Source: Armatimonadota bacterium (GTDB lineage: Bacteria; Armatimonadota; Zipacnadia; Zipacnadales; UBA11051). From it: DNA of 45,396 nt. A program made the translations under genes and the position numbers. Positions 39,895 to 42,896 of the stretch are shown piece by piece (the stretch's first letter is position 1; each line of letters starts with the position of its first letter). Location of the stretch: assembly GCA_013178155.1 (NCBI GenBank), contig JABLXH010000036.1, positions 1 to 45,396 on the forward strand, in the 5' to 3' direction. The notes below the pieces were generated by a model, which saw nothing but the letters and a program-made list of their open reading frames with translations, did no database searches and had not been told where the DNA came from.

Positions 39895-42411
39895 ATGGAA
39901 CCAGGTCTGCGCCGCTTCGACATTCGCGACTATCTTCGCATCCTGACGAAGCGGAAGTGGTTCATCCTCATGGTTGCGGTGGCCGCCACGATTATCGGCG
40001 GCACCATCGCTCAGTCCTATCCCCGCACCTATCGCGCTGCCACGACCGTCCTTATTCGCCGACAGGCCAAACCGGCGGTATGGATCGGAGATCGAGCCTC
40101 GCCGGCCACTCAGCCCCTCGACCTCGCTCTCGAAACCCAGACACGCCTCGCCACCAGCAGCAGTTGCGCTGAACGTGCAGCGCAGGCGCTCGCCAACCGC
40201 AGCGATGGAACCGCTCTCCAAGTCACCCCGTCGGAGATCCTGGCCAGCGTAGAGGCCCGGGCCTATGAGCCCGACCAGATCCGGATCATCGCCACGAGCC
40301 GCGAAGAGCACAAGGCGTTGGCCTTCGCCAACGAGATGGCAGCCGCGTTTGAGGTGGAGAGCCTCGAACTCCGGCGTAACGAGGCCAAGGCTGCGCGGGA
40401 GTTCTTGGAGAGCGCCCGTATCAAGGCCCAGAAGGCACTGGACGAGGCTCAGGCGGCCGCGGCGAAGTACCAGGAGAAGGCGGGCATTCTGCTACCCAGT
40501 ACCGAGAGCCAACTCTACATCACCCAACTGTACAACTATCGCGATGAGGAGCGCAAGGTCCGTGCCCAACTGGCCGCCGCCGAGGCGCGTCTGGCGGCCA
40601 CCCGCAGGCAGTTGGGGAGCGCTAAGCCCTTCTCCAAGGTCAAGCACGACAGACCCAACCCCACACGTGAGGCGTTGCTGAAGCAGCTAGAACAGGAGCA
40701 ATTGGCGCTGACCCAACTGCGTGCGCGTTACAAGGATACGTGGCCGGCGGTGCGAGAGGCCCAACGTCGTGTGGAGGAGCTGCAGGCTGAGTTGCTGCGC
40801 CAGCCGGAGACCGTCGTAACCACCGAAGTCATACCCGATATGACCATCCCCGAGCTCCGGCAAGCCGAGGCCTCGGCGGAGCGCGAGGTCGCCGAACTGT
40901 CACGACAGCTAAGGGTGATCCAGCAGAATGTGCGGAAACTGGATGCCGCCACGGGCGTCCTGCCCGCAAAGCTCGATGCTCTGCAGCGGCTGCTCGATCG
41001 CGCCGAGATGGCCAAGACGGCCTACCAAAACATCCTGGCGCAACTGGAGACCGCCCGCCGCAACGAGGCCATGAGGCTGGGCGATGCTCAGGTGATCGAC
41101 CGCGCCGTCAAGGCTGACCAGACGAACCCGCCGCTGGGAAGAATGCTGGCCTTCGCCTTTGTGCTGGGGCTGTTCTTCGGCGTGGCACTCGCGATGGTCC
41201 TCGAAGCTCTCGACGATACGCTCCACACGCCTGAGGATATCACTGCCTACACCGATGTGCCGTTCCTGGGCATTGTCCCCTTGCTGGAGGAGTCCGGACA
41301 GGGTCTTATCACGGTCACAGCCCCCAAGAGCCCGCCGGCGGAAGCTTACAGGACGCTGCGCTCCAACATTCATTTCGCGCAGCTTGACAGCCCGGCACGA
41401 ACCTTCCTGGTTACCAGTGCAGGCGCCGGTGAGGGGAAGACGCTCACGGTCGCCAATCTGGCGTGTGTCCTGGCGCAGGCCGGTCAGCGGGTCCTCCTGG
41501 TCGATGCCGACTTGCGCCGGCCCAGCCTGCACCGTCTCCTGCGGATCTCCGCCGAACGGGGACTGACTAATGTGCTGGTTGGCGAGGCAACATTGGCGGA
41601 AGTGGCGCAGGACACCGAGGTGCCAGGGCTGCAAGCGGTGACGACCGGCCCGCTGCCGCCGAACCCCGCCGAGCTGATCGAAAGCCAGCGCATGAACACG
41701 GTTATCGAACAAGCCAAACAGATGGCCGACGTGGTGCTGTTTGACTCGCCACCCGCCATCATCCTGACCGACGCGGTGATCCTGTCATCGAAGGTTGAGC
41801 GGACCATACTTGTTGCCGAGGCCGGGCAGGTCAGCCGCGACGCCTTCAACGAGATGTGCCGCATAATCCGCAATGCTCGAGGCCAGATACTGGGTGCCGT
41901 CCTCAACAAGCTGCGCCTGGGCGCCAGTGACTACTACTATTACTACTACTATTACGACTACTCACATTACGCACCGACCGAACCCAGCGGTCAAGGAGCC
42001 CCCCCGGCAGGCGCGAGCAACGGGCTGGTGCGGCCCGAGGCTCCGAGCGTCCTAGACTCGCTGTTTGGCGAAGAAGGGGCGTCAGACACGGGCGAGACAT
42101 CTGAGCCAGAGCAGCGACCGGAGGACAGGCCGTCGGACAATGCGAGCCCCGGCTCCGGCGCGGCAGGCTCTCCGTCGGCATCGGCCCCTCATCCTTCCGA
42201 CCAACCCAGTGCCAAGCGATGGCGCTTCAACGGGCAGACCTACCGCCGCGGGTCGGGCGAGAACCACCGGACGGATGGACCGTCCACGAACTCGAAAGGG
42301 CGCGACGCCTCGGCCGGGCCATCAGCACCGAATGGCCCGGCCGAGGCGTCGCGAGAGCGCAACATCCTCGATGATCTCTTCGGGGAAGACGAGGACACCG
42401 GCCAACAGTAA
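39895..42411 (+). CDS. Wzz-BY-kinase fusion (polysaccharide tyrosine autokinase) with long acidic tail
   Basis: 838 residues. Wzz domain with a first membrane helix (about 22-40), a long periplasmic coiled coil (~160-400) and a second helix (417-437). Cytoplasmic BY-kinase domain: Walker A with K515 (SAGAGEGKT), Walker A' LLVDAD (544-549) and Walker B LFDSPP (625-630). The Tyr cluster is Y680-Y687, then Y689 and Y692. Such kinases control export of exopolysaccharide by cyclic autophosphorylation. After the cluster there is an extra ~145-residue disordered tail with two copies of a VLDSLFGEE/ILDDLFGED motif (719-727 and 824-832). No other polysaccharide gene lies in the window. The DNA for the Tyr cluster is a TAC-rich repeat. 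Confidence 0.93.
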   Translation: MEPGLRRFDIRDYLRILTKRKWFILMVAVAATIIGGTIAQSYPRTYRAATTVLIRRQAKPAVWIGDRASPATQPLDLALETQTRLATSSSCAERAAQALANRSDGTALQVTPSEILASVEARAYEPDQIRIIATSREEHKALAFANEMAAAFEVESLELRRNEAKAAREFLESARIKAQKALDEAQAAAAKYQEKAGILLPSTESQLYITQLYNYRDEERKVRAQLAAAEARLAATRRQLGSAKPFSKVKHDRPNPTREALLKQLEQEQLALTQLRARYKDTWPAVREAQRRVEELQAELLRQPETVVTTEVIPDMTIPELRQAEASAEREVAELSRQLRVIQQNVRKLDAATGVLPAKLDALQRLLDRAEMAKTAYQNILAQLETARRNEAMRLGDAQVIDRAVKADQTNPPLGRMLAFAFVLGLFFGVALAMVLEALDDTLHTPEDITAYTDVPFLGIVPLLEESGQGLITVTAPKSPPAEAYRTLRSNIHFAQLDSPARTFLVTSAGAGEGKTLTVANLACVLAQAGQRVLLVDADLRRPSLHRLLRISAERGLTNVLVGEATLAEVAQDTEVPGLQAVTTGPLPPNPAELIESQRMNTVIEQAKQMADVVLFDSPPAIILTDAVILSSKVERTILVAEAGQVSRDAFNEMCRIIRNARGQILGAVLNKLRLGASDYYYYYYYYDYSHYAPTEPSGQGAPPAGASNGLVRPEAPSVLDSLFGEEGASDTGETSEPEQRPEDRPSDNASPGSGAAGSPSASAPHPSDQPSAKRWRFNGQTYRRGSGENHRTDGPSTNSKGRDASAGPSAPNGPAEASRERNILDDLFGEDEDTGQQ
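42301..42353. repeat. 22-bp perfect inverted repeat inside the kinase coding sequence
   Basis: The 22 bases 42301-42322 (starting CGCGACGCCTCGGCC) are exactly complementary to 42332-42353, with a 9-base loop CAGCACCGA at 42323-42331. Both arms are in the coding frame (residues about 803-820, RDASAGPSAPNGPAEASRE). This would be an extremely stable RNA hairpin, about 60 bases before the stop codon. Confidence 0.95.
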
Positions 42412-42447: not shown

Positions 42448-42478
42448 CGGGCCACCTTCCCCGGGGGAAGGTGGCCCG
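42448..42478. terminator. Bidirectional hairpin between the kinase and rpsI
   Basis: CGGGCCACCTTCCCC pairs with GGGGAAGGTGGCCCG, a 15-base perfect arm pair with a nearly closed loop, lying 37 bases after the kinase stop and 26 bases after the rpsI stop on the other strand. No T-tract is present on either side. Confidence 0.7.
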
Positions 42479-42503: not shown

Positions 42504-42896
42504 TTAGCGTTTGGAGAACTGCTTGGCTCGACGCGCCCGGCGCTTGCCGGCGTGCTTGCGTTCCTTCATCCGCGGGTCCCGTGTGAGTAACCCCAGGGGG
42601 CCGAGGATGCTCCGATTCTCGGGATTCGCATCCACCAGAGCCTTGGCGATACCGTGCCGCACCGCGCCGGCCTGACCACAAATGCCCCCACCCTTGACCA
42701 GGGCCTTGACGTCGTAAGTTCCCACCTCGGCCATGGCCCGCAAGGGCTGCATGATCTCCTCCACCAGACGTTCGCGGGTCAAGTAGGCCAGTGGCTCCTG
42801 CCCATTGATGGTCACGTTTCCCGTGCCGGGCCGAACCCATACGCGGGCCACGGCCTCCTTGCGCCGTCCCGTCCCATAGCTCATCTGCTGCAGCAA
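42504..42896 (-). CDS. rpsI: 30S ribosomal protein S9
   Basis: 130 residues from a TTG at 42896 with AAGGAGG seven bases upstream; the ATG at 42884 would be 19 bases away. S9 signature: YGTGRRKEAVARVWVRPGTG, VKGGGICGQAGAVRHGIAKAL, and the basic C-terminal tail ERKHAGKRRARRAKQFSKR that reaches the P-site tRNA. Last gene of the minus-strand ribosomal cluster, 46 bases after rplM. Confidence 0.97.
   Translation of the reverse strand: MLQQMSYGTGRRKEAVARVWVRPGTGNVTINGQEPLAYLTRERLVEEIMQPLRAMAEVGTYDVKALVKGGGICGQAGAVRHGIAKALVDANPENRSILGPLGLLTRDPRMKERKHAGKRRARRAKQFSKR

Follow-up and report, generated by a model that had tools for sequence, protein, structure and literature searches.

A single-copy perfect hairpin within the tail of an Armatimonadota tyrosine-kinase gene, probably a mutational relic

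Template switching is reported to make perfect hairpins in one event (PMC8794818) and to alter coding genes of yeast (PMC8604942). Perfect inverted repeats within translated frames are described from the mitochondria of Nematomorpha, with template switching or repeat conversion as the proposed origin (PMC6649704). Short palindromes that sometimes lie in frame within genes are also known as repetitive extragenic palindromes (REPs) carrying GTAG or CGTC and as Rickettsia palindromic elements (RPEs; PMC3733652). The hairpin compared with these systems here was found in an Armatimonadota bacterium of the Zipacnadia, a class proposed within that phylum (PMC10290634). The window, meaning the whole stretch of DNA analyzed (45,396 nucleotides, JABLXH010000036.1), is one whole contig (C142) of the draft host genome (GCA_013178155.1; 211 contigs, 5.53 Mb). 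The hairpin lies near the 3′ end of a tyrosine-kinase gene and is probably a mutational relic. With modest confidence, we regard it as a single-copy coding inverted repeat that arose by intramolecular template switching and has since been tolerated or passively maintained. The gene and the parts of the hairpin are as follows.

39895 to 42411, + strand: Wzz and P-loop tyrosine-kinase gene, which we take from this domain order to be of the Wzc/CapB type, with a C-terminal tyrosine cluster and a long variable tail (open reading frame of 838 residues; Pfam)
42301 to 42322, + strand: left arm, coding for RDASAGP and the first base of S
42323 to 42331, + strand: loop of 9 nucleotides (inverted-repeat search)
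42332 to 42353, + strand: right arm, coding for (N)GPAEAS(R); possibly, on slight indications, the older arm

The arms (22 nucleotides each) are 100% complementary, and the stretch from 42301 to 42353, which ends 55 nucleotides upstream of the stop codon, codes for RDASAGPSAPNGPAEASR. By coordinates, third codon positions pair with third codon positions across the arms. All seven such pairs match, so that the identity of the arms was most likely created at the DNA level rather than through selection on the protein. Third-with-third pairing is what PMC6649704 calls phase 3 and describes as the phase most restrictive for the encoded residues.

Rarity was assessed in 2,495,759 bases of the host's own DNA (45% of the genome, in 141 pieces that include the window) by searching for perfect stems with loops of 0 to 60 nucleotides. 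This gave 42 stems of at least 13 nucleotides, the longest with arms of 22 (the kinase hairpin), 22, 21, 17, 17 and 17, so that the kinase hairpin shares the top length; the other 22-nucleotide stem and the 21-nucleotide stem are inverted pairs of two dispersed REP-like families described below. By arithmetic from the G+C content of the surveyed pieces (65%), about 6e-5 perfect 22-nucleotide stems with a loop of at most 60 would be expected in this DNA. Within 1,634 genes called by our own codon-usage script (86% coding; the calls are rough), there was one arm each of 22, 21, 17 and 16 nucleotides, whereas 12 synonymous-codon shuffles combined yielded about one arm of 18, one of 20 and none of at least 21. 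Folded as DNA, the hairpin reaches −34.5 kcal/mol, whereas its shuffles average −13.4 and 0 of 200 were as good; as RNA, its stem reaches −52.4 kcal/mol. When coding windows of 53 nucleotides were sampled at steps of 10, leaving out those with fewer than 30 G+C, the two windows of the hairpin ranked 2nd and 7th among 197,399, and it was the strongest of nine places rescanned base by base. The hairpin is real and non-random, ordinary in kind and unusually long for its genome. The preliminary description had reported perfect 22-base-pair arms with a 9-base loop in frame, far beyond chance, and a strong structure in the mRNA, and it is borne out on each of these points as far as sequence and predicted stability go.

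Other stems may be set beside it. The next strongest of the nine rescanned places, at −48.4 kcal/mol, is an imperfect, very stable coding stem close to the beginning of a long called gene (L150:14171-17323, − strand, offset 62; G000:C113). A perfect 13-nucleotide stem lies within another called gene, 15 nucleotides upstream of its stop codon (L226:3080-3113). Among 84 loci of relatives (525,720 bases in two overlapping sets), five stems with perfect arms of at least 15 nucleotides were found. One exceeds the kinase hairpin (L093:7175-7250, Desulfotruncus arcticus; arm 27, loop 22, made of TTAG-like repeats; an arm of 15 overlaps it), so that long perfect stems occur outside the host as well.

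During replication, a short intramolecular template switch would have copied one arm from the other in reverse-complement form; alternatively, a template switch may have perfected a short quasi-palindrome. The target would have been a linker in the kinase tail that changes quickly and is probably disordered, where the reading frame was preserved overall and the residues were tolerated. Perfect arms would then reflect a recent origin, or would have been kept perfect through further template switching. No function would be needed, even though the transcript necessarily has the capacity for a very strong stem. Consistent with such an event, each arm has a close and perfect reverse-complement copy in the other, third-position pairs included, and no close second copy, no tag and no flanking direct repeat was found. 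In having a close reverse-complement copy and a perfect stem attainable in one step, the hairpin resembles published template-switch hairpins; those cases are inferred from ancestral histories, whereas the kinase hairpin is known from a single sequence (PMC8794818, PMC8604942). It resembles the Nematomorpha repeats in being a perfect inverted repeat within a translated frame. Those, however, are numerous, reach 284 bp and code for conserved residues in both arms, and the ones longer than 65 bp show pairing phases 1 and 2 but not 3; the kinase hairpin is one short case, of phase 3, in an unconserved tail (PMC6649704). A literature search on hairpins and Wzc-type kinases, judged by titles and the beginnings of abstracts, turned up no such hairpin among the papers listed, though one may nonetheless have been published. 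The locus offers a clear case of a perfect inverted repeat that lies inside a gene of a bacterium, in a tolerant protein tail, and bears no mark of a mobile element; if the template-switch reading is right, it illustrates how local copying errors may add residues to variable tails.

The tail was compared with those of homologues. The kinase protein matches Pfam Wzz, AAA_31, ParA and CbiA above cut-off and GNVR slightly below it. The tail runs for 161 codons from the tyrosine cluster through the stop codon, and ILDDLFGEDEDTGQQ forms the C terminus of the protein. Two further features lie in this tail.

42026 to 42099, + strand: upstream module with the similar motif VLDSLFGEEG (sequence and alignment with the tail end)
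42354 to 42408, + strand: C-terminal peptide with the motif ILDDLFGEDE, related forms of which end three same-family homologues (L004, L005, L006)

Homologues of the kinase were matched in all 41 genomes of the order compared, counting the host's, which is the only one of its genus. The closest match (G001, 57% identity over residues 1 to 771) has a tail without a counterpart of the hairpin. Thirty kinase loci were examined, and a tyrosine cluster was recognized in 27, 26 of them other than the window's. In these 26 coding tails, no perfect stem (loop 1 to 40) reaches 10 nucleotides, the tail of L022 having one of 9; 24 of the 26 are fully informative, since L007 is truncated at the end of its contig and the frame of L009 is apparently broken after an ambiguous base. 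Stems were seen beyond the stop codon in L011 (15 nucleotides), L017 (11 and 9) and L005 (9). Length and sequence vary freely among the 22 tails that were written out, and the arms accordingly code for residues that differ between these loci. Four of the 22, all of one family (L003 to L006, the window's included), end in forms of an L-D-L-F/L-G motif; the same family's other two tails are the incomplete L007 and L009. Variable tails with a recurring terminal motif place the hairpin in a variable linker, with the motif behind it. The motif, (I/V)LD(S/D)LFGE(E/D), is present twice in the kinase tail (42026 to 42099 and 42333 to 42407) and may be a docking peptide.

The upstream module aligns with the right arm plus the terminal motif, and only 3 of 500 shuffles score as high. 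Several points weigh against template switching or against giving it a direction. The right arm alone was reached by 96 of 500 shuffles, which is not significant, and the left arm by 224 of 500; copying of the left arm from an older right arm should therefore be considered only a suggestion. The same terminal stretch also reaches 28, nearly the 31 of that alignment, at some place within the gene's first 2,031 nucleotides. Neither the arm (22 nucleotides), the arm plus loop (31) nor the whole hairpin (53) is divisible by three, so that the frame can have survived only through the loss, gain or replacement of further bases. In addition, the genomes compared include no ancestral or same-genus sequence that shows the event.

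The strongest rival, though we consider it unlikely, is a selected RNA element near the 3′ end, which might guard the kinase mRNA from 3′ exonucleases, slow ribosomes before the stop codon or block antisense read-through from rpsI. Its setting includes the following features.

42448 to 42478, no strand assigned: second perfect hairpin (arms 15 nucleotides, loop 1) in the gap where the kinase and rpsI genes converge, in a position that resembles that of the host's other 3′-end hairpins
42504 to 42896, − strand: rpsI (ribosomal protein S9; Pfam Ribosomal_S9, 7.1e-44), convergent neighbor of the kinase gene

The stem energy and window ranks given above count in its favor, and the hairpin stands about 150 nucleotides beyond the rpsI stop codon. 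Perfect intergenic hairpins of at least 13 nucleotides also cluster behind genes in this host: 29 of 32 lie within 100 nucleotides after a stop codon, compared with 18.8% of intergenic positions, and in gaps of at most 400 nucleotides the figures are 26 of 27 and 52%. From this clustering, they probably mark transcript ends in this genome; some of them are REP pairs. Note that the 32 are hairpins between called genes, that an earlier count of 30 of 33 held one not between two called genes, and that a superseded control (11.6% near a stop) had oversampled small pieces without called genes. On the other side, the separate hairpin at 42448 to 42478 already stands between kinase and rpsI. Ribosomes would open the kinase stem, which is on the sense strand inside a coding region, and the 26 other kinase tails, having no comparable coding stem, give no support for a conserved role. 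The T run of an intrinsic terminator is absent on both sides (after the stem, AGAGCGCAACAT; before it, on the other strand, CCCTTTCG), which counts for little because just 6 of 33 intergenic stems have one. A terminator scan gave 0 sites, but covered loops of 3 to 8 only and so could not have reported the kinase stem whole; an Rfam scan of the window at gathering thresholds found no family. The specific version in which a selected coding stem is an RNA barrier separating the kinase transcript from the convergent rpsI operon, while coding for an inert linker, is decidedly improbable; if true, a coding region would double as a transcript boundary. Two related ideas were rejected: a terminator captured after loss of a stop codon, because the terminal motif behind the hairpin recurs in relatives, and a programmed frameshift, because the codons before the stem (TCG AAA GGG) leave no spacer and are not a canonical slippery heptamer.

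Somewhat less probable than an RNA role as a whole is a fold-back chimera introduced in assembly. Undiverged, perfect arms would be expected from fold-back, the host genome is a draft, and of 55 named loci, the 19 whose names include Zipacnadia, Armatimonadota/Armatimonadetes or WS1 all come from metagenome bins. A plain insertion of loop and arm (31 nucleotides), however, would break the frame, and an insertion of random length would preserve it one time in three; here the frame continues into the terminal motif that recurs in same-family relatives. The hairpin is also 3.0 kb away from the nearer contig end.

The preliminary description had further proposed a REP-like or mobile palindrome inserted in frame. 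Although the real, in-frame and stable stem that it described stands, this part of it is not supported, and a singleton palindrome of the REP or RPE kind should be considered very unlikely. The reading has some basis: REP families and Y1 transposase matches are present in the host, some REP pairs there lie within open frames, and RPEs are reported in frame inside genes (PMC3733652). The kinase hairpin, like an RPE, is an in-frame palindrome in a protein gene. REPs and RPEs as described there nevertheless form dispersed families in which one end of the palindrome has an unpaired tag, whereas the kinase hairpin was found once, and untagged. No close second copy of the arm was found. A 101-nucleotide query against both strands of the whole host genome found its own place alone. 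The 19-nucleotide arm core, with at most 3 mismatches, has 22 places in that genome against 26 for a reversed control; these are the two arms, one place with one mismatch (the best other match, over 19 nucleotides) and 19 with three. Across the 41 genomes, the 22-nucleotide arm, likewise with at most 3 mismatches, has 21 places against 10 in the control. They are the two arms and 19 places with three mismatches, one of them in the host, and no match with fewer than three occurs in the 40 other genomes; this mild excess is put down to composition. Each 12-mer of the arm occurs 2 to 8 times in the surveyed 2.50 Mb (own copies included), and viral contigs gave 0 exact matches to the arm. The ends of the hairpin (flanks AAAGGG and AGAGCG) carry no unpaired GTAG or CGTC, CGTC occurring within the stem only. 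No flanking direct repeat of 3 to 9 nucleotides was found where looked for, and a plain 53-nucleotide insertion would have destroyed the frame. Finally, chance or codon bias would fit the 65% G+C of the genome and the stems of 9 to 14 nucleotides, which are about as frequent in genes as in synonymous-codon shuffles, but with two arms of at least 21 in the real genes against 0 in 12 shuffles its probability is negligible.

The REPs of the host are of interest in themselves, and the REP/RAYT system (RAYT, REP-associated tyrosine transposase) is a more useful lead than the kinase hairpin. Two GTAG-headed REP-like families were found in the host genome, the first (GTAGGAGCGCTCACCnGAGCGCGA) at 40 places with at most 3 mismatches and the second (GTAGGCGGGGCATCCTGCCCCGCC) at 28, with 0 in controls for each. 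Both are dispersed, and several copies form inverted pairs (for example C130:18213-18842, C2:172791-172873 and C141:23619-23691 in G000). The kinase hairpin was rejected as a member of either family, its sequence being different. The Y1 transposase of RAYT type that goes with GTAG REPs is represented by two matches to PF01797 above cut-off, on C113 and C130 and not on the kinase contig; this is a property of the genome rather than of the hairpin. First-family copies stand on either side of the match at C130:18388-18672, which amounts to a REP/RAYT arrangement in a genome of Armatimonadota type; none of the papers listed by a literature search on REP/RAYT-type terms mentions Armatimonadetes. 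In the surveyed pieces, the rough gene calls place 9 of 22 first-family copies and 6 of 19 second-family copies within called genes. Two REP pairs stand inside open frames (L212:6892-6956, on G000:C177, and L233:3617-3693, at G000:C141:23617-23693), one in an Amidohydro_2 match that continues on both sides and one in a 1,383-residue protein with a Laminin_G_3 domain. In-frame REP insertion has been reported in R. conorii and O. terrae (PMC3733652), and by analogy it is the likely origin of both pairs.
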